Shown in pieces: positions 1 to 10,190 of a DNA stretch of 10,190 nucleotides. The position numbers and the translations under genes are program-made. The notes under the pieces are model-generated. The model saw only the letters and a list, made by a program, of their open reading frames with translations. It was not told the DNA's origin and ran no database searches. Every line of letters begins with the position of its first letter. The stretch's first letter is position 1. The stretch is from NCBI GenBank assembly GCA_002482405.1, contig DLFX01000195.1:1465-11654 (forward strand). The letters run 5' to 3'. This DNA is from Firmicutes bacterium UBA7709 (GTDB lineage Bacteria > Bacillota_A > Clostridia > Peptostreptococcales > Anaerovoracaceae).

Positions 1-508
1 CGTGTTTATGAAGGTATTCCAAAGGATCCTCCAGGGTGATGATATGAGCTTCTCTCATTTTGTTGATCTTGTCTATGATACAGGCCAAGGTCGTGGATTT
101 GCCGCTTCCGGTGGGTCCGGTCACCAGCACAAAGCCCTTAGTCTTCTCATACAGATCGATGACCTGCTTTGGAATCCTGAGGGTTTCGGGATCCGGCAGC
201 TTGAATAATACGACCTTCAGCACCGCGGCCAGAGAGCCTCTTTGCATAAACGAATTTACCCGGAACCTTCCGACATTTGGGAGGGAAAAGGAAAAATCGT
301 CGTCCATGCACTTCTTCAAGGTCTCGACATCTCTTCCGGCAAAATCATAAATCTGGCGGATCATCATTTCCGTATCCGGCGGCAGAAGCCGTCCGCCCAC
401 CGTGATAATGCTGCCGTTTGACGTATAGGACAGCGCTTTGCCCGCAACGATGAATATATCAGCCGCGTGGCCGCTTACGGCGTCCTCCAGAAATTTTTTC
501 AGATCCAC
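1..508 (-). CDS. pilT: PilT-type pilus ATPase, 3' end cut by window edge
   Basis: This is the N-terminal 169 residues of a PilT/GspE-family secretion ATPase, the motor that in type IV pilus systems powers pilus retraction from the cytoplasmic face of the membrane. An N-terminal domain contains AADIFIVAG (residues 15-23), the counterpart of the PilT ASDxHxxxG stretch. Walker [10 protein letters not shown], is at about 131-139, and the Asp-box region [15 protein letters not shown] at about 155-169, where the window ends. Length up to Walker A fits PilT rather than the longer PilB/GspE. The start is a GTG at 508, chosen because GGGAGGA (516-522) lies 7 bases upstream; no in-frame ATG fits. It is the last visible gene of the minus-strand operon, 18 nt behind its neighbour. 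The C-terminal half, with Walker B and the His box, is not visible, so retraction rather than assembly function rests on the N-terminal match. Confidence 0.88.
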
Positions 509-526
509 AATATAATCCTCCCTGCT

Positions 527-931
527 TTATTCCACAATTGTATCATCAAACTCTGTTTTATATTGGTCATAGTCCCACTGGGATTTGGGGACGAGGGTTC
601 GGTGAGTGACGGTGTATCTGCTGCCGTTCACTTTCAGAACCATGACCAGATCCTGGGTAGCGGTGGCCGGAATTGTAAAGGAGCTCGTCTCCAAGGCCTG
701 CCCGGCGCTTAGGGACGCGTCGGCAGACGCCAGGATCTCCTCGGCTTTACTGTCGGCGGAATAATAGCCCGTGACCGCTTCCGTCGCTTTCTTCGTCAGC
801 TTCCAGTCTGCGTTCGCAGTCATCAGAGAAAGCGCGGCCAGGGTTGTCAGGCATAGGACGACGAAAATCATGATGATGGAAGGCCCGCCGATTCCGACGC
901 TCATTTTCAGCTTTTTATCCATTCGACTCAC
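527..931 (-). CDS. small single-pass membrane protein of the pilus-like operon
   Basis: This 134-aa protein has one N-terminal membrane helix (about residues 16-38, IIMIFVVLCLTTLAALSLMT) followed by an extracytoplasmic region that begins NADWKLTKKA and is rich in Ala and Ser. The layout, a short cytoplasmic tail, one helix and a helical extension, resembles minor pilins or pseudopilins. There is no canonical G|FTLxE prepilin site, although glycines precede the helix. From memory, similar proteins with an IFVVLCL helix and NADxKL motif occur next to T2SSF genes in other Clostridia, without a known function. The start is uncertain: GTG at 931 overlaps the upstream TGA by 4 bases, while ATG at 922 sits behind GAGGTGA and would shorten the protein by 3 residues. 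A structural or accessory pilus subunit is an inference from position. Confidence 0.8.
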   Translation of the reverse strand: MSRMDKKLKMSVGIGGPSIIMIFVVLCLTTLAALSLMTANADWKLTKKATEAVTGYYSADSKAEEILASADASLSAGQALETSSFTIPATATQDLVMVLKVNGSRYTVTHRTLVPKSQWDYDQYKTEFDDTIVE

Positions 932-1380
932 CTCGCTCCGCGGAAATACTTCTTTGTGTCCAGCTCGTAAATGATTTTATTGCCAGAGGCCGCCGCATAA
1001 TGAAAGACCGCCATAACACCGGCCGGCCGCTCCTCTAAAACGACCTCGGAGGTCAGGACATATACGGCTCCGTCTGGATCTGTCAACCTCCAGTCGGCGT
1101 CAAAATAAACGGGCGCGCGGGCGTTTGCCATGCCGGATGCGCCGTCCGCAGGTGCTTTCGTGGCGTCGAAGGACGCGTCGATTTCCCCAAATTGCGCAGC
1201 CTTATCCGCTTCCGCGGCCGACTGGACCGCCAGGGTCGCACCGTTCAGCGCTTCCGTATCATGCGCCAGTTCATGGGCCTTAGCAAAGACCTGGACCGTG
1301 ACGGCGCCCGCGAAAGCGAAAAACAGGATGACGACGATCAGCTCGATCAGAAAAAGGTGGGACCGTGACATCGATTTCAT
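928..1380 (-). CDS. pseudopilin-like membrane protein, non-canonical prepilin site
   Basis: The 150-aa product starts MKSMSRSHLFLIELIVVILF, a hydrophobic N-terminal helix with a Glu placed as in type IV pilins (FxxxE-like, LFLIE). Aligning that Glu as position +5 puts His, not the usual Gly, at -1 of the prepilin peptidase site. The helix (about residues 9-33) is followed by an Ala-rich extension with VFAKAHELAHDTEALN and a globular C-terminal part ending in KYFRGAR. It is therefore probably a pilus or pseudopilus subunit, but processing by a standard PilD is doubtful. The ATG at 1380 overlaps the upstream stop as ATGA and is preceded by GGGAGGTGG; its own TGA overlaps the next gene. It belongs to the four-gene block of small membrane proteins between the platform protein and the ATPase. 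Confidence 0.82.
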   Translation of the reverse strand: MKSMSRSHLFLIELIVVILFFAFAGAVTVQVFAKAHELAHDTEALNGATLAVQSAAEADKAAQFGEIDASFDATKAPADGASGMANARAPVYFDADWRLTDPDGAVYVLTSEVVLEERPAGVMAVFHYAAASGNKIIYELDTKKYFRGAR

Positions 1381-1865
1381 CGGGAGCCACCTCCCTGATC
1401 CGTTCGGAAGGAGAGGGCAAGAGTGCGGGTTTTCCCCCTATGGTCCGAAGCCGTGATCTGCAGCAGATCGCCCTTCAGCTTGAATTTCAGCCCGTGGCTC
1501 GGAATCATGGCGAGTCCGTCCTCAAGGCGAAAGGAAGTCCCCTTTTCGAGATAGACCTCATAAAGAGAATTCTGATATTCGTAAATCCACGTTTCACAGG
1601 TCACGCCGTTGTCGGGAGTTTCCAGCACAAGAGCGTCGGTTCCTTCCTTATTGATGATGCGGATCGAATCGATCCGGTCGTTTTGCCTTATCTTTGTGGC
1701 GATATAGGAAAGGGGCGTCCGGAATTCAAAGTTTGAATCCATGTCCTCTTTGATCCCCTTATATGTATTTGAACCCAGGATTGCGGTCATCAGCGCGCCG
1801 AAGGCGAAGACGCAGAGGAGTGCCAGGATAAAGATAAAGTCAAGGGGCGCGTGATTACGTTCCAT
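1377..1865 (-). CDS. DUF4860-like single-pass membrane protein
   Basis: This 162-aa protein has one N-terminal membrane helix (about residues 9-31, within FIFILALLCVFAFGALMTAI) and an external domain with the order TPLSYIATKIRQND, ETPDNG, TWIYEYQNSLYEVY, and a hydrophobic beta-rich tail. This arrangement, and the R-Q-N-D segment followed by an extended-strand region, recalls the DUF4860 family that I associate with clostridial pilus-type clusters. That family assignment is from memory and needs an HMM search. Minor pilins of the GspJ/ComGF type have a similar layout of a helix followed by beta strands that include a W-x-Y strand, so a minor-pilin role is possible. The ATG at 1865 has AGGAGGG 5 bases upstream. 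It starts 13 nt after the previous stop and overlaps the next gene by 4 bases, so translation is probably coupled. Confidence 0.82.
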   Translation of the reverse strand: MERNHAPLDFIFILALLCVFAFGALMTAILGSNTYKGIKEDMDSNFEFRTPLSYIATKIRQNDRIDSIRIINKEGTDALVLETPDNGVTCETWIYEYQNSLYEVYLEKGTSFRLEDGLAMIPSHGLKFKLKGDLLQITASDHRGKTRTLALSFRTDQGGGSR

Positions 1866-1878
1866 TGCTTCCCTCCTG

Positions 1879-2184
1879 TCACATCGAAAGATCGATCACG
1901 GTGATGTCGGGCAGGATATTTCCGGCGAAGACCTCGTAGTGAACGATAAAACGGTTATGGTCGATGACCAGTCCGTAATTGTCCTCAAGATATTTGATAT
2001 TGGGGGGATACATCCCCTCGATGGCATAGCACTGAACCGTCGCCCGCAGAACGGCGTCCTGAAGAATATTCCGGCTTTCCGCCTCCCCCGCGGCGGATAC
2101 GTTTCCGACTCCCACGGATAAAAAGGCAAGAAGGCAAATAAAAATAAGGACCGGCACGATAAGGCTCTTCCAAAAATGACCCAC
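1879..2184 (-). CDS. small membrane protein, pseudopilin-like C-terminal part
   Basis: With the start used here the product is 101 aa. GTG at 2184 is chosen because a perfect AGGAGGT ends 6 bases before it. A TTG at 2202, overlapping the stop of the upstream gene, would add 6 residues but lacks such a site. The helix (roughly residues 5-25, WKSLIVPVLIFICLLAFLSV) is followed by AESRNILQDAVLRATVQCYAIEG, then YPPNIKYLEDNYGL. A long helix followed by a Tyr-x-x-x-Gly-x-Tyr-Pro turn is seen in GspG-like major pseudopilins, which suggests, but does not prove, a short pilin relative. No prepilin cleavage motif is visible. It lies directly behind the platform protein gene. The function is unknown. Confidence 0.75.
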   Translation of the reverse strand: MGHFWKSLIVPVLIFICLLAFLSVGVGNVSAAGEAESRNILQDAVLRATVQCYAIEGMYPPNIKYLEDNYGLVIDHNRFIVHYEVFAGNILPDITVIDLSM

Positions 2185-2198
2185 GATAGCACCTCCTG

Positions 2199-3227
2199 TC
2201 AACCGATGGCGGAAAGGACTCCCAGAAGCGGGAACATCACCGACATCAGAACGGAGCCGATGAGAATGGAGACCGCCACGATGGAGACCGGCTCGATCAA
2301 AGCAACCCTTCTCATCAGGGCCGACTGGTATTCTTCCTCATAAAGGTCGGCTATGTATTCCAGCGCGGAATCCATCGATCCCGACAGATTTCCCATGGAA
2401 AGCAGGCCCGTCATGGTGTTGGAGAGCAGGCTGACCTTTTCCAGCGCTTCTATGAAAGACACGGATTGGCTGTTCATCAGCGCTCTGGCCTTTTCCACCT
2501 TGCTCTTTACGGTCCGGTTAAACACAGCCTGGGAGGAAAGCCGGAAGGAGAGGTCCAGGTCGAGGCCGCTGGAAAGCATAAGGGCCATAGACGAAGTAAA
2601 GGTCGCAACAGCGAACTTCTCAGCGATTTTTTTCCCCATGAGAAAACCGGAGACGGCCGCCTTTCCCGCCTCGGTGCGCATGATGAAAAGGCAAAGGACC
2701 AGCAGTACCAAAAACAGCACGATGAATATGGCGGAATAGCGGCTGAACAGAGAGCCGGTATTCATAATATAGACGGCAAAGGGAGACATCTGGGCGCCCA
2801 GGCTGTTGAAGACCTGTCCAAAAACAGGAAGCACCTTGGCGGCCAAAAAGATAAGGACGATGAGCATCATGAAAATCAGTACGAGAGGGTAAACCACGGC
2901 GCTTTTGATGTTTTCCCGCATGGATTGCTGACGGCTGTAATATGCGGACAGCGCGGTCATAACCGCGTCCAGTTTGCCGGATTTCGTTCCGATTTCAACG
3001 ATATGTACCATATATTCCGGGAATACGCCGGTTGACTTCAAAGCGGTTTCCAGCAGTTCGCCCTTGGACAGCTGATTGGCAATGTTCTGAAGAATCGCTT
3101 TTTTCTGCGGGCTCGCCGTGTCGTCGGCGATGAGCTGAACGCCGGAGTGGAGCAGGATACCGGACCGGATCATCATGGAGATCTGCTCACAGAAAACGGC
3201 CAGATCCCTGTACGAAAGCTGTTTCAT
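2199..3227 (-). CDS. pilC: type II secretion F family / PilC-like inner-membrane platform protein
   Basis: This 342-aa polytopic membrane protein is the platform on which the pilus ATPases act in type IV pilus and type II secretion systems. Two T2SSF domains are visible. The first (about residues 5-130) has FCEQISMMIRSGILLHSGVQ and the characteristic VEIGTKSGKLDAVM. The second (about 205-330) has the parallel FTSSMALMLSSGLDLDLSF and the GNLSGSMDSALEYIADLYEEE stretch. Hydrophobic segments follow YPLVLIF (about 110-135), lie around 155-180, and end the protein (about 312-340), the usual three-helix pattern. The length matches short Gram-positive PilC/ComGB proteins rather than the roughly 400-aa Gram-negative ones. 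The ATG at 3227 follows GGAGG with a rather long spacing of about 10. It begins 19 nt after the sortase stop, so the two genes are almost certainly co-transcribed. Confidence 0.92.
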   Translation of the reverse strand: MKQLSYRDLAVFCEQISMMIRSGILLHSGVQLIADDTASPQKKAILQNIANQLSKGELLETALKSTGVFPEYMVHIVEIGTKSGKLDAVMTALSAYYSRQQSMRENIKSAVVYPLVLIFMMLIVLIFLAAKVLPVFGQVFNSLGAQMSPFAVYIMNTGSLFSRYSAIFIVLFLVLLVLCLFIMRTEAGKAAVSGFLMGKKIAEKFAVATFTSSMALMLSSGLDLDLSFRLSSQAVFNRTVKSKVEKARALMNSQSVSFIEALEKVSLLSNTMTGLLSMGNLSGSMDSALEYIADLYEEEYQSALMRRVALIEPVSIVAVSILIGSVLMSVMFPLLGVLSAIG

Positions 3228-3246
3228 GACTAGATTTCCTCCATTG

Positions 3247-3888
3247 CTATGAGATAAGTTTTCCGTGGATAATGAGCCTATGGGTATTGGAGCCCTTCGG
3301 AGCGCAGGTGATCAGCGTCACGATGGCGCCGTCCTTCGGCTGCGCCAGCACGGAAGTATCATCGGGCAGTACGGTCAATATTTCGTAGGCTTCGTAGGTA
3401 TATGAATTTTTATTATATTCTACTGTGATCCGGTCTCCGATTTGAACTTCCCCCAGCCTGCTGAAGTAGGAGCCGAAGGTGTAGTTGCGGTGTCCTGCAA
3501 TAGCGCAGTTGCCGGCTTCTCCCGGCATCGGAGTCGCGGTGAGATGACCGGCGCCCCAGTTGAGATCCTTGGATGTGGAGCCTTCAACCAAAAGCAGGTC
3601 GATGTCTGCGCTGGGGATCTTGATGCGCCCGATAACGGTAGGCTTGTAGGCCGGAGCGGACTTCTCGGCTGCAGGGGTAACAGCTTCCGGTGATGCGACG
3701 GCTGCGGGCGTCGTCTGGTTTTCCGAAAAAGCGCTGTCCAGATCGTGGATAGAGTTTTCCAGTTCCTGGCTGTTCATGTACTCTTCATACAGCTTATCCT
3801 GCTGATAATTTGTATATACGGCTCCGACGATGGGAACCAAAATGATGATGACCCCCAAAACAATAAGCCAGGTTGAAAATTTTTTCAT
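3247..3888 (-). CDS. class D sortase
   Basis: This is a 213-aa membrane-bound cysteine transpeptidase that cleaves LPxTG-type sorting signals and joins the protein to peptidoglycan or another acceptor on the cell surface. An N-terminal anchor helix (about residues 5-25) is followed by a charged and Ala/Pro-rich linker (about 27-82) and the sortase barrel. Catalytic residues are all present: His133 in AIAGHRNYTFGSYFSRL, Cys195 in TLITC, and Arg204 in THRLIIHGKL. The TLxTC plus HRNYTFGxxF signature indicates class D rather than A, B or C. The ATG at 3888 is preferred over one 12 codons upstream because GGGGAGAGG lies 5 bases before it. It is the first gene of the pilus-like operon, an unusual partner for such genes. 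A candidate substrate with LPKTG is encoded at the right end of the window. Confidence 0.93.
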   Translation of the reverse strand: MKKFSTWLIVLGVIIILVPIVGAVYTNYQQDKLYEEYMNSQELENSIHDLDSAFSENQTTPAAVASPEAVTPAAEKSAPAYKPTVIGRIKIPSADIDLLLVEGSTSKDLNWGAGHLTATPMPGEAGNCAIAGHRNYTFGSYFSRLGEVQIGDRITVEYNKNSYTYEAYEILTVLPDDTSVLAQPKDGAIVTLITCAPKGSNTHRLIIHGKLIS

Positions 3889-3922
3889 GAGATCCTCTCC
3901 CCGCCCTTTGGTATCTATTAGC

Positions 3923-3951
3923 ATTATAAGGAATTATGTGGAAAGAAACAA
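3923..3951 (-). promoter_or_regulatory. putative sigma-A promoter of the sortase/pilus operon
   Basis: On the minus strand TATAAT (3923-3928) is separated by 17 bases from TTGTTT (3946-3951). The -10 box is perfect; the -35 box matches the consensus at three of six positions. The start of transcription would fall near 3915, leaving a leader of about 27 nt before the sortase ATG, too short to hold a riboswitch. Confidence 0.6.
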
Positions 3952-4170: not shown

Positions 4171-5406
4171 ATGGAAAAACCCGAAGCAAAGACGAATCAA
4201 GGAATATTGGAAATCCAGATGCTTGGCGATTTTTCACTGCGGTATGGCGATCGCATGCTCTCCGGCGACAAGGCCAGAGGAAAGCAAATTTGGAATTTCC
4301 TGGAATACATAATGGTGAACCGCCACAAAGAAATCTCCATGGACGGCCTGATTCAGGCCCTGTGGAGCGAAGATGAGACCGAGGACCCCGCCAACGCGTT
4401 AAAAAATCTGGCTTATCGCCTGAGAACGACGCTGAAGCAGTCCCTTGGCCTGGAGGCGGAAAACTGCATCGTTTACAAGCATGGCGCTTACGTCTGGAAT
4501 AAGGACGTCGCGTGCAGCATAGACGTGGACGAGATGGAAGCAGCTTACAAGGTGGCGCAGCAGCGCCCGCGAAATCAGGACGAGCAGATGGCCCATTACA
4601 GAAAAGCCATCGACACGTACAAGGGGAATTTCATGCCCCAGTCCTCTTTTAAAGAATGGATCGTGCCGCTGGCCGTCTATTACCAGCGTATCTTCATGGA
4701 ATCCGTCGCCGCATACTGCGAGCTCCTGATGGAAAAAGAGGATTACAGGACGGTGGAGGAGGTGTGCCGCAGGGCCATCGCCGTCGATCCGTTTGTAGAA
4801 GCGAATCACGCGATGCTGATCAGAGCTTTTATCGGATCAAACAGCCATGATAAGGCCATCGCTCATTACAACTATGTAAATAAGCTGTTTTATGACGAAT
4901 TGGGCGTCAGACCTTCCGATGCCCTTGCGAAGCTTTACCATGAAGCGACCAAAAAAAGCGCGGCGCCGGAGATAAATATTGCGCTGATCAAGGACGACCT
5001 AAAGGAGTCGAAGGAAATTCTGGGGGCTGTCTACTGCAATTACGAAGAGTTCAAGATGGTCTATCAACTGGAGGCGAGAGCAGCCCTGAGATCGGGAAAA
5101 TCCGTGTTCCTCGGGTTGATTACCGTGACGGGAAAACAGAAAAAAGAACTCTCTAGGGATAACTTTGAAAGAACCTTTGAAAGAATACAAAAGGCTATCG
5201 TTTCATCTCTGCGAAAGGACGATCTCGTTACGAGACATGGCCGGACGCAGTTTCTGGTCCTGCTTGCAAACCTGACCTATGAAAACAGCAATATGGTTCT
5301 GGGCAGGCTGGTGGAAAAAATCAACGGCAGCGGAATCAGCGGCATAGAAGTTTCCGGCCAGCTGCAGGCTTTGGACCCGGTAGAGCTGGAGGAGAGATAT
5401 GTTTGA
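4171..5406 (+). CDS. BTAD/SARP-like transcriptional regulator with degenerate GGDEF-like C-terminus
   Basis: This 411-aa cytoplasmic regulator has three parts. Residues about 12-110 form an OmpR/SARP-type winged helix: LEIQMLGDFSLRYGDR at the start, the helix around MDGLIQALW, the NALKNLAYRLRTTLKQ recognition segment, and a YKHGAYVWN wing. Residues about 115-265 are a bacterial transcriptional activation (BTAD) domain of TPR-like helices, with CSIDVDEMEAAYKVAQ, IDTYKGNFMP, and HYNYVNKLFYDELGVRPSDA. Residues about 280-395 resemble a GGDEF fold: FLGLITVTG, FERIQKAIVSSLRKDDLVTRHGRTQFLVLL. Here GRTQF (357-361) replaces GGDEF, so cyclase activity is not expected. ATG 4171 is preferred over an upstream ATG at 4093 because the extra 26 residues precede the domain start and AGAGG lies 7 bases before 4171. 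The gene overlaps the next by 8 nt. Its targets are unknown; the divergent pilus operon is the obvious candidate. Confidence 0.85.
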   Translation: MEKPEAKTNQGILEIQMLGDFSLRYGDRMLSGDKARGKQIWNFLEYIMVNRHKEISMDGLIQALWSEDETEDPANALKNLAYRLRTTLKQSLGLEAENCIVYKHGAYVWNKDVACSIDVDEMEAAYKVAQQRPRNQDEQMAHYRKAIDTYKGNFMPQSSFKEWIVPLAVYYQRIFMESVAAYCELLMEKEDYRTVEEVCRRAIAVDPFVEANHAMLIRAFIGSNSHDKAIAHYNYVNKLFYDELGVRPSDALAKLYHEATKKSAAPEINIALIKDDLKESKEILGAVYCNYEEFKMVYQLEARAALRSGKSVFLGLITVTGKQKKELSRDNFERTFERIQKAIVSSLRKDDLVTRHGRTQFLVLLANLTYENSNMVLGRLVEKINGSGISGIEVSGQLQALDPVELEERYV

Positions 5407-5869
5407 GTTTGAGAAAAAAACCATATCAAGCAACATCTCCCGGTTCAAACTAGTCATGGAAGAGACGGAGCGCTTTGATATTGCCGGCACACTGTATAAC
5501 GACTTTTACGGGTTTGCCATCGATTTTCAGGGAGTCAGGCAAATGTTGGGCCGCTTGGACGAGTTCTTTGACTATGTGGACTTCCCCCAGGCGACTCACG
5601 AAGGGAGAAGCTTCCGCGAGAAACCACCCGGCAGGAAAAAACATCCTCCGGCAGGGCTTAGAGAAGTTTCGGCTGAGGAGATGAAGGGCAGGCGGACGAC
5701 TTTTTTGCTGCATGTACAGTTCCGCAGGAATTCAACATGGCAGGGCGCCCTTGGCTGGGTCGCTGAAAATAAGACAAAACGGTTCCTCAGCGAGCTGGAG
5801 CTGATCGGGTTGATAGTGGAAGCCCTGAAAAGGGAAGCCGATGGCGAAGGCATTGAAAAAATAGATTGA
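5399..5869 (+). CDS. protein of unknown function with C-terminal TWQG domain
   Basis: This 156-aa soluble protein begins inside the end of the regulator gene, with GGAGGAG just upstream of its ATG, so translation is probably coupled. The N-terminal part (about 20-72) holds FDIAGTLYNDFYGFAIDF and LGRLDEFFDYVDFPQAT. A Lys/Arg/Pro-rich linker follows (73-98). The C-terminal domain (about 101-143) reads TFLLHVQFRRNSTWQGALGW and continues through RFLSELELIGLIVEAL, a pattern of two or three strands and a helix. The same domain makes up most of the next gene (19 of 44 aligned residues identical by hand count). I do not recognise a named family, though small clostridial proteins with QFRxNxTWQGxxxW are familiar. 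Co-expression with the BTAD regulator suggests a partner or co-regulator role; this is inference only. Confidence 0.8.
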   Translation: MFEFEKKTISSNISRFKLVMEETERFDIAGTLYNDFYGFAIDFQGVRQMLGRLDEFFDYVDFPQATHEGRSFREKPPGRKKHPPAGLREVSAEEMKGRRTTFLLHVQFRRNSTWQGALGWVAENKTKRFLSELELIGLIVEALKREADGEGIEKID

Positions 5870-5991
5870 AAAAATATGGTTTATGACCCGATTGTGACTG
5901 AACGGTATCATAATAAAACAGAGTAGTATGAATCACAGTATTTTTTAAAGCAAACCAATTAGATGGAATATCGTCGCAAGGGGGAACTCAG

Positions 5992-6207
5992 ATGAACGTT
6001 CTGACGAAAAAGGACGACTGTAAAGCAACGTTTACCATACAGATACAGTTTCAGCAGAATGCCACCTGGCAGGGCTCGATCGCGTGGGCGGAAGGCGACA
6101 GGTCGCAGCGGTTCCGGAGCGAGCTGGAAATGCTGAAGCTGATGATGGAAGCGGTAGCTTCCGACAGTTCTGCAGAGGACAAAGAAGTTTTGAGTACCTG
6201 GGAATAG
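5992..6207 (+). CDS. small TWQG-domain protein
   Basis: This 71-aa soluble protein is almost entirely one domain (about residues 12-55): FTIQIQFQQNATWQGSIAWAEG, with a gap before RFRSELEMLKLMMEAV. It is a stand-alone version of the C-terminal domain of the gene before it. The ATG at 5992 lies 8 bases behind AAGGGGG, a good ribosome binding site, and conservation with the neighbour covers the whole domain, so it is very likely a real gene despite its size. The 122-nt gap before it shows no convincing promoter or terminator, so read-through from the regulator operon is likely. The function is unknown. The shared, isolated domain suggests protein binding or dimerisation, but nothing in the sequence proves it. 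Confidence 0.8.
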   Translation: MNVLTKKDDCKATFTIQIQFQQNATWQGSIAWAEGDRSQRFRSELEMLKLMMEAVASDSSAEDKEVLSTWE

Positions 6208-6280: not shown

Positions 6281-7081
6281 ATGAAGAGAAAGCTTTTGCT
6301 TTGCCTGTCGGCGCTGTTGATATGGACGACCGCCGGGGCCTCGGCAGCATTTGCCGCCGACTATTTTGATACGAAGGATATCGGAAGCGGTGTGATCCAT
6401 GTTACATATGACGGCGGCGGCAAGACAAAGGTGATCATCGAAAAAGGGGACAAGAAGTATACCTACGATATCAACAGCTCCGGAACGACGGAGAGCTATC
6501 CGTTGCAGCTTGGCAACGGCACCTATAAGGTCAGCCTGTTTGCCAACACTTCCGGAAATTCCTATCGGCTGATCTCGTCAAAGAGCATCGACGTGAAGCT
6601 TACCAACCCGAATTCAGTATATCTGACTTCGATTCAGAATATAAATTGGAACGTGGATTCAAAGGCGGTTGCAAAAGCGGTGGAGCTCACGAAGGGCGTG
6701 GACGATCTGCAGCAGAAAGCGAAGATATTATGGGATTACATGGTGAAAAACAACTCCTATGATTATCAAAAACTTGCCGCGGTATCCACGGGATACATAC
6801 CGGTCATCGATCAGACCCTGGCCGACAAAAAAGGGATCTGTTATGACTTTTCTTCTTTATACGCGGCAATGCTGAGAAGCGAGGGAACGCCGGCAAAGCT
6901 GATCAAGGGTTACGCGCCGAAAAACGCCTCAGGCTATCACGCATGGAACGAGGTTTACGATAAGAACAAGGGCCAGTGGGTCATCATCGACACCACCTAC
7001 GACCTTCAGGTGTTCCCTAAAAACCCGAATGTTCCGATGGAAAAGGATTCGAAGGATTTCAACAAGGTATACGAGTACTGA
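6281..7081 (+). CDS. secreted transglutaminase-like protein
   Basis: The 266-aa product has a signal peptide (KRK, hydrophobic core residues 5-20, likely cleavage after AFA or AFAA near 25-26). A beta-rich region (about 30-108) follows, with TYDGGGKTKVIIEKGDKKYTYDI and PLQLGNGTYKVSLF, like a small Ig-type or C2-like domain. A transglutaminase-like domain (about 125-266) completes it. The papain-type triad is intact: Cys187 in KKGICYDFSSLYAAMLRSEG, His220 in GYHAWNEVY, and Asp237 in WVIIDTTYD. Such proteins act outside the cell as proteases, amidases or cross-linkers. Which reaction applies here cannot be told from sequence. GGAGGAGG precedes the ATG by 9 bases. The 73 nt before it lack a terminator, so it probably belongs to the same transcript as the TWQG genes. 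No terminator follows it either, so transcription may enter the riboswitch leader. Confidence 0.9.
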   Translation: MKRKLLLCLSALLIWTTAGASAAFAADYFDTKDIGSGVIHVTYDGGGKTKVIIEKGDKKYTYDINSSGTTESYPLQLGNGTYKVSLFANTSGNSYRLISSKSIDVKLTNPNSVYLTSIQNINWNVDSKAVAKAVELTKGVDDLQQKAKILWDYMVKNNSYDYQKLAAVSTGYIPVIDQTLADKKGICYDFSSLYAAMLRSEGTPAKLIKGYAPKNASGYHAWNEVYDKNKGQWVIIDTTYDLQVFPKNPNVPMEKDSKDFNKVYEY

Positions 7082-7090
7082 TAAAAATAA

Positions 7091-7120
7091 TTGACTTTCG
7101 GTATGAGTAAAGGCCATAAT
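7091..7120 (+). promoter_or_regulatory. putative promoter of the riboswitch-controlled surface protein gene
   Basis: TTGACT (7091-7096) and CATAAT (7115-7120) are separated by 18 bases; each box matches the consensus at five of six positions. It begins 9 bases after the transglutaminase stop. Transcription would start near 7127 and give a leader of about 580 nt with both aptamers. Confidence 0.65.
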
Positions 7121-7197
7121 ATGGGTACAAATAAAAAAGAAAGCTTGCGGAATATTTTTCGGCTATAGTGTAGAAACTCAACATAAACATATTAATG

Positions 7198-7313
7198 CGA
7201 TATTGAAAGGGCAAACCCCCCGAAAGGGTGGGGCGCAAAACCAGGAGCCTAAAGCGGTCGTCCGGTGAGCCGGATATGTTTGCTATGGCGGTCCGGTTGC
7301 CACATATTTCATT
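7198..7313 (+). promoter_or_regulatory. cyclic-di-GMP class I (GEMM-I) riboswitch, first copy
   Basis: The conserved core of the GEMM-I aptamer is present in order: GGGCAAACC (7209-7217), a P2 hairpin capped by GAAA, GGGGCGCAAAA, then CCAGGAGCCTAAAGC, a variable P3 arm with a CCGG/CCGG hairpin, GGCGGTCCGG and finally GGTTGCC (7295-7301). By comparison with the Vibrio Vc2 aptamer, the ligand-contacting G20, A47 and C92 correspond to G7211, A7238 and C7300. Where the consensus has a G-C pair opening P3, this copy appears to have A7240-U7292. The outer P1 stem is only approximate, using TGAAA (7204-7208) and TTTCA (7307-7311). It precedes an intrinsic terminator, so it most likely controls transcription elongation. 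Confidence 0.93.
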
Positions 7314-7352
7314 ACCCGAAATGAAACAGGATATGAAACATGTGGCTTTTTT
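7299..7352 (+). terminator. intrinsic terminator serving as expression platform of riboswitch 1
   Basis: Bases 7299-7312 (GCCACATATTTCAT) pair with 7333-7346 (ATGAAACATGTGGC), 13 of 14 positions, followed by six T (7347-7352). The left arm includes the last GCC of the aptamer core, with C7300, which should contact the ligand. Terminator and ligand-bound aptamer are therefore mutually exclusive, which predicts that c-di-GMP favours read-through. A competing hairpin, TTTCATT (7307-7313) with AATGAAA (7320-7326), could act as an anti-terminator. Confidence 0.85.
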
Positions 7353-7444
7353 ATTTGGGAGAACGCTCTCGGGGGTGTATTTTGCCACTCTGCGCCATGG
7401 TCACAGAAAAAAACAAAAAACCGGTAAAAACTAGAAATTTATGA

Positions 7445-7472
7445 CTGACATGTGACCGGTGAGTGGGATAAT
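7445..7472 (+). promoter_or_regulatory. possible internal promoter between the riboswitches
   Basis: CTGACA (7445-7450) and GATAAT (7467-7472), each five of six to consensus, are 16 bases apart. If active, it would make a shorter transcript that carries only riboswitch 2. The spacing is one base short of optimal and the sequence could be chance. Confidence 0.35.
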
Positions 7473-7561
7473 GGCGGCAACAATAAAGATATCGACAGCT
7501 ATACGGGGAATTTTTCAAAATCAACCGCATCAAAGTGTGGTTAGATAGATCAAAGAGAAAA

Positions 7562-7675
7562 TAGTGAAAAGGGCAAACCTGCCGAAAGGAAGGGGCGCAA
7601 AGCCAGGAGCCTAAAGCGATGGCCCGAGGATTCGGACCGATCTGTCATGGCAGTCCGGTTGCCACATATTTCATT
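7562..7675 (+). promoter_or_regulatory. cyclic-di-GMP class I (GEMM-I) riboswitch, second copy
   Basis: The same core as the first copy is seen: GGGCAAACC (7571-7579), P2 with a GAAA loop, GGGGCGCAAAGCC, CCAGGAGCCTAAAGC, a P3 arm with CCCGA/TCGG, GGCAGTCCGG and GGTTGCC (7657-7663). G7573, A7600 and C7662 correspond to Vc2 G20, A47 and C92. This copy is closer to consensus than the first, with GCAAAGCC and GGCAG where the first has GCAAAACC and GGCGG. There is no terminator after it; the coding start follows within 45 nt, which points to control of translation. Confidence 0.94.
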
Positions 7676-7715
7676 CTCAAAAAAGTGTGTGTAAGGAGAG
7701 ATGAAAAATGATGGC
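7661..7715 (+). promoter_or_regulatory. start-codon sequestering hairpin, expression platform of riboswitch 2
   Basis: Bases 7661-7674 (GCCACATATTTCAT) can pair with 7701-7715 (ATGAAAAATGATGGC), 13 pairs with one bulged A (7711) and one mismatch. CTC (7676-7678) may add three pairs with GAG (7698-7700). The ATG at 7708 would be inside the stem and the AAGGAG site (7693-7698) in, or partly closed by, the loop end. The left arm includes the ligand-contacting C7662, so ligand binding should release the start codon. This predicts a translational ON switch; the pairing is by eye, not folded. Confidence 0.6.
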
Positions 7716-10190
7716 TCATTTTAAAGGAAAGAAGAAACCGAAAATTTTACTGGTCACAGCATTAATCTTAACCCTCCTTGTGACCTACGCCGTTCCGCTG
7801 ACCGTTTTTGCGGACGACACCCTTCCCACGGGACAGCGACTGGAACAGCAGAATACGTCGGCTGATCCCGGCACAACGGATCCGGGAACGACTGATCCTG
7901 GCACAACCGATCCTGGAACGACTGATCCTGGCACAACCGATCCGGGAACGACTGATCCCGGCACAACCGATCCGGGAACGACTGACCCTGGCACAACCGA
8001 CCCGGGAACGACTGACCCTGGCACAACCGACCCGGGAACGACCGATCCCGGCACAACGGATCCTGGAACGACTGATCCCGGCACAACCGATCCTGGCACA
8101 ACTGACCCTGGAACGACTGATCCCGGCACAACTGACCCGGGAACAACGGATCCCGGCACAACCGATCCAGGAGCGCTTGATCCCGGCACAGTCGAGCCTG
8201 AAGGCGTTCAGATGTTAATGGCATTGCCAAAACCCGGGCTATCGCTGGAAGTCACCGCATCCGTCGATCCAGCATATCAAGGTGACGAGGTAACCTATAC
8301 TTATAAGCTTCAGAATACTGGAAATATAGATCTTTCAAGTGTTATTATTACAGATCGGTTCCCAAAAGAGATCTCACGGCAAGTCATTTGGGGGGACCTT
8401 TTTACTACCTTGAAAGTTGGAGCAAAAGTAGAAGCAACTTATACGTATAAGATATCCGACGGGTACGATAAAAGCAGTCTGAAAAATGATGCACAAGTAA
8501 CTGGAGCATATTGGGGAGTTGTGCCTGTATCTGGCGGAGCATCGGTTACCATCCAGATAAAAGAGAAACCGGATTATGACATCACCTTTACGAAGGAGGC
8601 TTCTGTGGCTTCTGCGGAGCCTGGAGATGTGATTCAATATACTTTTACAGTGGAGAATACCGGCAAGAAAAATTTGGGAAGCGTAATCCTGACAGATAAA
8701 TTGTTTGGCGACGATTGGTCCTATGATTTGGGCAGCTTGCAAAAGGATAAAGAGGTCAGCTGGACTACGAGCTATGCTATTTCAGCGGAAGCGAGCGGAG
8801 TTCTGACAAACACGGCCGCCGCTACGGCGTTCGGAAAAGCGGTTCCCAAAACTTGGCTGGCGGCAGTGGTACAGTGGATTAATGATGAGATACTTGAGCT
8901 GCCCCAATGGCTTTTAAATATTTTAGGGATTGGCAAGGACGACATGGTGAAGGCAGAGGCTTCGGCAACTGTGACGATTTCTTCCCAAGAGGAACCGACA
9001 ACACAGGTACCTGTCACATTCTATGTTTTGAAACATGGCAACCCAAGGCCGGACACTGAAGGAAGCCAGGATGAAAACAAATATACGGAACGGGGAATTT
9101 TGACGATTACGGCTCCCGGAGTGACAGTTGATAAAGGTAGGAGCCTGATCAATGAATTTACCTCTTCCGGAAATGACAAGGATGCTGTTGAAGGCAAAAT
9201 CGTTGAGCTGAGCAGCCAGGAAGCGTATGAAGGCCTGATGAGCTCCATCAACGAGGAGATGAATGATGCGGCATATGGCGCCGTGCTGCCGACAGGCTGG
9301 TATATCGACTGGTATGACTTTAAATGGGAGGACGACGGATGGCATGTAGACGGAGATATTAAAGTAGATCAAGGTCAAGAGCCTCAGGACCCGGAAACGA
9401 AATATGAATATACGGTTTATTATAAGGTAGAAGGAACCGAGGAGCTTATTCATACAATATCGGGTTCCACAACAGCCGGCTCCATCACCATCCCCGAACC
9501 TGCTGACATTGATCATAGTAAATATAAATTTGCTGCTGGCTCTACTACCGGTGCTGTGACTTTCGATTTTGCCAACGATGAACCATCAGAAGGTTTATAT
9601 GTTAAAACCGTCTGGTATGAGCCTGTTGGTAAAGAGGAGGATCAGATCGTCGGATATTATCATATTTGGTATTTGGTCAGCGGAAGCGGAATTAGCATTT
9701 ATGACAGGGACAACACGGACTGCTGGGCTGCAGACGATTGGGATGATGAGACCGACGCGAGTTCTGTAACGGTAACCGGTCCCGCGCTATATGAGAAATA
9801 TAAAAAATACGTGCCTGTAGCAAGTGAATTTGTTCCTGAGGAAGAGGGACCGGTATATTTTATGCTTAAAGGCATTGCATCAGGAATCTCTGATGGACCT
9901 GCGTTTGATAAGGATGGAGCAGTGACAATTAATTGGGATGATCCCGATCCAGGATATCATCAAGTAATCGTATGGTATGATCTGGAGAAATCGGATGAAC
10001 CCAATACGCCAGATAATCCCATTAATCATGGCGGCAGAGGGAACAAACATAGCAGCACCCCAGACACGACGATCACTCCCGAGCAGGTTCCTGCCGCTCC
10101 TGTTGAGCAGGAATCACAGAAACCAGCGGATCCGGTGATCATGGATGACGCGGCAGTTCCCGCAGGCCCGCTGCCGAAAACCGGCGGTTT
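7708..10190 (+). CDS. LPxTG-anchored repeat surface protein (probable adhesin), 3' end cut by window edge
   Basis: The reading frame is open for 827 codons from ATG 7708 (AAGGAG 9 bases upstream) to the window end. The layout is: signal peptide (KGKKKPK, hydrophobic core about 13-30, cleavage likely after VFA at 35); a TDPGT stalk of 22 pentapeptides (52-161); two DUF11-like repeats (about 174-289 and 291-428) with YTYKLQNTGN and YTFTVENTGK signatures followed by VIxTDxF/L; three related Tyr/Trp-rich beta modules (about 434-553, 566-640, 649-763); a Pro/Thr/Gln linker; and LPKTGG at 822-827. Anchor helix and charged tail lie beyond the edge. It is exported by Sec, and attachment to the wall by sortase is expected. 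Adhesion is inferred from architecture and from c-di-GMP control, not from a known ligand-binding domain. Its leader carries two riboswitches. Confidence 0.92.
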   Translation, partial: MMAHFKGKKKPKILLVTALILTLLVTYAVPLTVFADDTLPTGQRLEQQNTSADPGTTDPGTTDPGTTDPGTTDPGTTDPGTTDPGTTDPGTTDPGTTDPGTTDPGTTDPGTTDPGTTDPGTTDPGTTDPGTTDPGTTDPGTTDPGTTDPGTTDPGALDPGTVEPEGVQMLMALPKPGLSLEVTASVDPAYQGDEVTYTYKLQNTGNIDLSSVIITDRFPKEISRQVIWGDLFTTLKVGAKVEATYTYKISDGYDKSSLKNDAQVTGAYWGVVPVSGGASVTIQIKEKPDYDITFTKEASVASAEPGDVIQYTFTVENTGKKNLGSVILTDKLFGDDWSYDLGSLQKDKEVSWTTSYAISAEASGVLTNTAAATAFGKAVPKTWLAAVVQWINDEILELPQWLLNILGIGKDDMVKAEASATVTISSQEEPTTQVPVTFYVLKHGNPRPDTEGSQDENKYTERGILTITAPGVTVDKGRSLINEFTSSGNDKDAVEGKIVELSSQEAYEGLMSSINEEMNDAAYGAVLPTGWYIDWYDFKWEDDGWHVDGDIKVDQGQEPQDPETKYEYTVYYKVEGTEELIHTISGSTTAGSITIPEPADIDHSKYKFAAGSTTGAVTFDFANDEPSEGLYVKTVWYEPVGKEEDQIVGYYHIWYLVSGSGISIYDRDNTDCWAADDWDDETDASSVTVTGPALYEKYKKYVPVASEFVPEEEGPVYFMLKGIASGISDGPAFDKDGAVTINWDDPDPGYHQVIVWYDLEKSDEPNTPDNPINHGGRGNKHSSTPDTTITPEQVPAAPVEQESQKPADPVIMDDAAVPAGPLPKTGG
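7861..8190 (+). repeat. 15-bp tandem repeat encoding (T/A)DPGT, 22 units
   Basis: Twenty regular 15-bp units (7861-8160) are followed by two diverged ones (8161-8190, TDPGA and LDPGT). Units mostly alternate between GGA ACG and GGC ACA for Gly-Thr, giving a 30-bp higher period. All are in frame, so gain or loss of units would change stalk length without a frameshift. The Pro/Thr-rich sequence should be extended and could carry O-linked sugars; that is inference. Confidence 0.97.
10171..10185 (+). other. LPKTG sortase sorting signal
   Basis: Codons CTG CCG AAA ACC GGC give Leu-Pro-Lys-Thr-Gly, followed by another Gly at the window edge, after a Pro-rich linker. This is the position and form of a cell-wall sorting signal. 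The membrane segment and positive tail that should follow are outside the window. Confidence 0.85.

Follow-up and report, generated by a model that had tools for sequence, protein, structure and literature searches.

Two class I c-di-GMP riboswitches follow one another upstream of a surface-protein gene in the 10 190-nt stretch of DNA analysed here (the window), the first running into a predicted intrinsic terminator and the second into a hairpin predicted to enclose the start codon. This observation, made in the original prediction, is confirmed by covariance searches, structure predictions and related loci. We consider it rather probable that the surface-protein locus carries a duplicated ON-switch module of this class in which the second copy has a promoter of its own (P2). 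The same order of elements, namely a transglutaminase gene, an aptamer with terminator, a box promoter, and an aptamer with start-codon hairpin, is common to the window and two other genomes. Uncultured Firmicutes OKU13 (G001) was the one relative that a search of the genome collection recovered when alignment A1, made of four related surface proteins, served as the query; on a contig other than that of the surface-protein match, it has two aptamers behind an orthologue of the transglutaminase (75% identity). The second genome, G196 (probably Anoxybacterium hadale), has its genes and aptamers in the same order as G001. The features of the window are as follows; the copy 2 hairpin has counterparts also in G067, a relative that carries four aptamers across an array of surface genes.

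4171 to 5406, plus strand: SARP/BTAD regulator, 411 amino acids, with a C-terminal degenerate GGDEF domain (domain and homologue searches)
5882 to 5914, plus strand: putative promoter of the P2 design, upstream of a small gene and the transglutaminase gene (box scan)
6281 to 7081, plus strand: transglutaminase-like protein, 266 amino acids (PF01841, E 2.8e-21)
7091 to 7120, plus strand: uncertain promoter-like site ahead of copy 1, TTGACT-18-CATAAT (promoter scan)
7200 to 7304, plus strand: c-di-GMP-I aptamer, copy 1 (RF01051, 69.7 bits)
7299 to 7352, plus strand: predicted OFF hairpin of copy 1, an intrinsic terminator (folds; counterparts in G001 and G196)
7440 to 7472, plus strand: putative promoter P2 between the copies, TATGACT-N4-TGTGACC-N9-GATAAT (same design in nine sites of four relatives)
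7563 to 7667, plus strand: c-di-GMP-I aptamer, copy 2 (best clan match RF03167, c-di-GMP-I-GGC, 63.8 bits)
7661 to 7715, plus strand: predicted OFF hairpin of copy 2 around the Shine-Dalgarno sequence and start codon (folds; counterparts in G001, G196 and G067)
7708 to 10188, plus strand: surface protein with DUF7507/DUF11 domains, open at the window edge

The surface protein has DPGTT repeats and an LPKTGG motif (LPKTG-type) near the window end, and at 7860-8190 the DPGTT repeat has long open frames on both strands. The minus strand of 2-3924 contains, as judged by eye, ORFs resembling a type IV pilus ATPase, assembly and pilin-like proteins, together with a sortase (PF04203). The small ORFs at 5399-5869 and 5992-6207 had no match in Pfam or NCBIfam; ORFs that resemble them by eye follow the promoter box in other genomes. 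A search for relatives of the transglutaminase in viral contigs was without result.

Two aptamers and their predicted OFF hairpins

The original prediction had placed two GEMM-I aptamers near 7205-7305 and 7565-7665, and the Rfam covariance search returned matches above the cut-off at both places: copy 1 with 69.7 bits to RF01051 (cut-off 35, E 2.2e-12) and copy 2 with 63.8 bits to RF03167 (cut-off 59, E 1.6e-13). Up to E 1, Rfam found no further RNA family in the window. Since the output gives the top-scoring clan member for each site, the score of copy 2 stands under RF03167, the clan sister of RF01051. We take the GGC in the name of that family to mean that CGCGAA replaces CGCAAA. In the Rfam alignments copy 2 reads CGCAAA, as RF01051 does, instead of the RF03167 consensus CGCGAA, so its pocket reads as that of an ordinary class I aptamer and its assignment to the GGC variant is rejected. 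The pocket bases, comprising the GG of GGCAAA, the first A of CGCAAA and the 3' GCC, which we take to be the ligand contacts of class I, are present in both copies, in agreement with the full core claimed for each. The copies are paralogous, with a gap-free alignment from GGGCAAACC through an identical GCCACATATTTCATT, and their 15-base 5' OFF arms are identical.

In the minimum free energy (MFE) fold of copy 1, GCCACATATTTCATT pairs with AUGAAACAUGUGGC in a stem at 7299-7346 that is followed by a U6 tract (7347-7352), as expected for the Rho-independent terminator that had been proposed. In copy 2, GCCACATATTTCATT pairs with a segment spanning GAGA to AUGAUGGC, the GCC being part of a stem closed at AUGAUGGC with GGAGA inside, and the hairpin contains both the Shine-Dalgarno sequence (7693-7699) and the ATG start codon (7708-7710). 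These are ligand-free ViennaRNA folds, and the MFE structures of the aptamer pieces are without the P1 of the bound form. Shuffling everything except the 5' arm gave hairpins that matched the real one in 1 of 300 trials for copy 1 (slice from 7300) and in 9 of 300 for copy 2. The z-scores of whole-region folds are modest (-1.65 and -1.50, respectively).

Both OFF arms start with the GCC that forms the 3' end of the respective aptamer, so that ligand-bound aptamer and OFF hairpin should be mutually exclusive and each copy is expected to be an ON switch. This logic, together with the concealed start codon, had been part of the original prediction and is borne out by the predicted folds and by the two orthologous loci, where the hairpins have counterparts. 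The predicted structures have the make-up of a bi-mechanism tandem, with a terminator platform first and a ribosome-site platform second.

The promoter between the copies

Copy 1 starts 118 nt after the transglutaminase stop codon in the window, 54 nt after it in G196 and 29 nt after it in G001, where its terminator ends in U7. From this position and its predicted structure, copy 1 looks like a c-di-GMP-gated operon end. In each of the three loci (window, G001 and G196), the two copies are separated by a heptamer-repeat promoter of activator type, so RNA started at P2 would meet the second gate only. The original prediction had both switches acting as serial gates in one leader. That part stands for read-through RNA, which would meet both, but as stated the simple sharing of one leader is not supported, because the conserved promoter between the copies speaks against it. 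A transcript common to both switches could arise by read-through or from the promoter-like site at 7091-7120, with the conserved promoter intervening. The terminator scan found none at 7082-7199, a weak absence given that it also missed the terminator of copy 1.

If the site at 7091-7120 were the promoter of a single bi-mechanism leader, every surface-protein mRNA would pass through both gates and the response would be steeper. The site does have promoter-like elements, and serial mixed gates are described for SAM switches in the accessible text of a tandem riboswitch review (PMC9481103). We nevertheless consider such a leader unlikely: three promoter-like sites were found in the region versus 1.4 expected in shuffles, this one is not conserved, the short gaps ahead of copy 1 in G001 and G196 leave no room for a counterpart in the former, and the promoter that is conserved is the box promoter between the copies.

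Relatives also contain copies with remnants of a Shine-Dalgarno sequence and AUG that have no gene behind them (G067 at 21065, 15398 and 26632; locus L001 at 2999, with an 11-codon frame). The copy 1 terminators may accordingly have arisen from start-codon hairpin modules. Taken further, these remnants and the paralogy of the copies could mean that copy 1 is a relic, a switch and terminator left from a lost surface gene and now an unregulated end of transcription. The full aptamer is, however, kept in copy 1 in the window (69.7 bits), G001 (67.9 bits) and G196 (69.8 bits), and we regard a mere relic as quite improbable.

With a duplicated module and P2 serving copy 2, as we favour, the 3' GCC of copy 1 would in the absence of c-di-GMP pair downstream, forming a terminator that stops RNA from the transglutaminase operon, and the GCC of copy 2 would likewise pair downstream, in a hairpin that conceals where ribosomes bind and start on the surface-protein mRNA. 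P2 RNA would be made at low c-di-GMP without being translated. When c-di-GMP is present, the aptamer would keep its GCC and P1 strand, making read-through and translation possible. Read-through RNA would then be subject to two gates and P2 RNA to one.

A SARP-GGDEF neighbour and the spread of the promoter box

P2 shares its design with the promoter upstream of the transglutaminase gene. The neighbouring regulator (4171-5406) has the hallmarks of a SARP, with a winged-helix and a BTAD domain and with heptamer-repeat operators at the locus; in the available part of PMC10972967, the operators of SARP proteins are direct repeats of heptamers that overlap the -35 element. We infer that P2 is most likely driven by this adjacent regulator. 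Its C-terminal domain retains the GGDEF fold with the active site lost and RxxD kept, as in a degenerate-GGDEF effector. Homologue searches found 102 homologues, and among 100 homologues GG(D/E)EF occurs in none and RxxD in 99, which makes a third, protein-based layer of c-di-GMP control plausible. It is likewise plausible from these sequences that the SARP-GGDEF protein represents a candidate family of c-di-GMP-responsive transcription factors. In the open-access literature search, the text available to it contained no relevant description of BTAD, GGDEF and c-di-GMP together, and no combination of SARP with GGDEF was found among the matches listed.

A regulator that requires c-di-GMP would make P2 a third gate. 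We put forward tentatively the possibility that the ligand controls the surface protein at three successive levels: initiation, through a SARP activator responding through the product site of its dead GGDEF domain; elongation, through a gated terminator; and translation, through a start-codon hairpin whose versions in relatives double as terminators.

The window and the fetched loci gave 11 hits to the promoter box, each with 0 mismatches where up to two were allowed, and a scan of 10 whole genomes found nine sites in four of them (reversed control, 0), all nine at this locus, with one of the G001 sites on the contig that starts with the surface gene. Across the family, we found 25 sites in 14 of 349 genomes (control, 0), and in a class-wide sample the box was present in 4 of 391, G001 among them. 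A scan of 20 further box loci found no c-di-GMP aptamer at 19 of them, so the box is wider than the arrangement described here; in the remaining one, G213, the box is accompanied by a transglutaminase-like ORF and by an aptamer truncated where the contig ends. At several of the further box loci, the downstream ORFs begin like exported proteins, as judged by eye.

At one other box locus (G049; L060:5188-5352, minus strand), a class II c-di-GMP aptamer (RF01786, 63.9 bits) lies downstream of the box, ahead of an ORF with an apparent signal sequence. The use of another aptamer class, from a different RNA family, at the corresponding place may point to selection that favours control of this position by c-di-GMP. 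At L001:2831-3180, the box is followed by a class I aptamer and a hairpin with U7, and then only by the 11-codon frame, which starts like the surface proteins.

Related loci and known tandem riboswitches

The relatives blur the line between the transcriptional and translational mechanisms, at least in predicted structures. In G067 (23985 and 26866) and G196 (1947029) the start-codon stem is directly followed by U7, and in G001 (9037), where the copy 2 hairpin buries the start of MMAFFKGSKRSK, by UUUCUUU. These U-rich tracts lie in Ala-Phe-Phe codons of the coding sequence, and with them the start-codon hairpin may also terminate transcription in these genomes. In the window, the counterpart tract is broken (UCAUUUU), so that copy 2 probably acts on translation here. 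Start-codon hairpins without a U-tract are common in the family, as at the similar locus in G036, where the hairpin is followed by AACAAACGA. Extending the relatives' U-tracts to the window, copy 2 could mainly terminate at the start codon, with both gates transcriptional, but given the broken tract in the window and the G036 hairpin we find this very improbable.

The layout of the locus is not fixed, as the surface gene downstream of copy 1 in G067 starts approximately 150 nt behind the aptamer and no box separates the two. To see how tandems are composed more broadly, we included 133 of the 150 aptamer matches listed in a census, leaving out the 17 weaker ones, and found at least 19 tandem groups in 17 of 54 genomes among the matches listed. 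By heuristic, only G001 and G196 among these matches combine a terminator that has a U-tract with a hairpin over the start codon; because the heuristic mis-scored G067 26632 and the copy 2 U-tract of G196, both of which were refolded, the class counts are rough. After refolding by hand, G067 26632/26866 joins the mixed pairs, and G086 contig C19 may do so too, with three copies, U7 after the second and a last hairpin that contains a Shine-Dalgarno sequence. The idea that the mixed arrangement is common among the tandems of the family is rejected by this rough census, in which it accounts for few of the at least 19 groups.

The comparisons with published systems draw on the portions of the cited papers that were accessible. 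Class I c-di-GMP doublets outnumber every other tandem class in one survey, which counts 347 doublets and 12 triplets (PMC9481103), and in the Bc3-5 triplet more copies give tighter control (PMC4759541). The locus resembles these systems in having a repeated aptamer class before one gene, predicted to be ON (PMC9481103, PMC4759541). Bc3-5, however, consists of three transcriptional units (PMC4759541), whereas the second unit here is predicted to be translational, with its own promoter. In the SAM-II/SAM-V and SAM-II doublet tandems, the first member terminates and the second controls ribosome access, as we predict here, but those bi-mechanism tandems are OFF switches (PMC9481103), in contrast to a predicted ON pair with a second messenger as the ligand, both members of one class, and an internal promoter. 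According to the accessible text of this review, the only source on bi-mechanism control with c-di-GMP found in the open-access literature search, tandems have not been comprehensively evaluated for mixed mechanisms, and which of them mix output levels is left open (PMC9481103); the present locus, conserved in three genomes or more, is a case of this kind.

Bc1 of Bacillus thuringiensis is likewise a c-di-GMP-I riboswitch acting on transcription and translation, although it is not a tandem, and its single aptamer works through two terminators, with effects that oppose each other (PMC11218506). A hairpin with dual action is not new in principle. In the pT181 repC attenuator, the ribosome site lies in the 3' half of the terminator hairpin, so that one hairpin serves both levels, but it is run by an antisense RNA and not by a ligand, and the coding U-tract with a buried start codon seen in our relatives does not appear in the portion of the pT181 description available (PMC5435934). 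Class I c-di-GMP doublets are listed as regulating COG1305 transglutaminase genes in Bacillota (PMC12452182); the riboswitch class and gene family are those found here, but the listed doublets regulate the transglutaminase, whereas ours follows it and precedes the surface gene. Aptamers do precede a transglutaminase gene in G095 and G023. Within the open-access literature search, we judge the combination of a mixed ON/ON pair, an activator promoter between its members and a SARP-GGDEF neighbour to be new. The locus suggests how such tandems may originate, through loss of a surface gene behind a switch of which the aptamer and terminator remain, and its SARP-GGDEF protein is a candidate c-di-GMP transcription factor linked to these same genes.

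Two further tandem loci were observed. In G182 (L072:1947-2311), class I aptamers are closely packed, with three identified by cmscan versus four overlapping matches in another search. The tandem class I aptamers ahead of the transglutaminase gene in G095 (L066:69-297) include a second member with AGCAAA instead of the class I GGCAAA, a difference at the position that the accessible text of PMC9481103 links to a preference for c-AMP-GMP.
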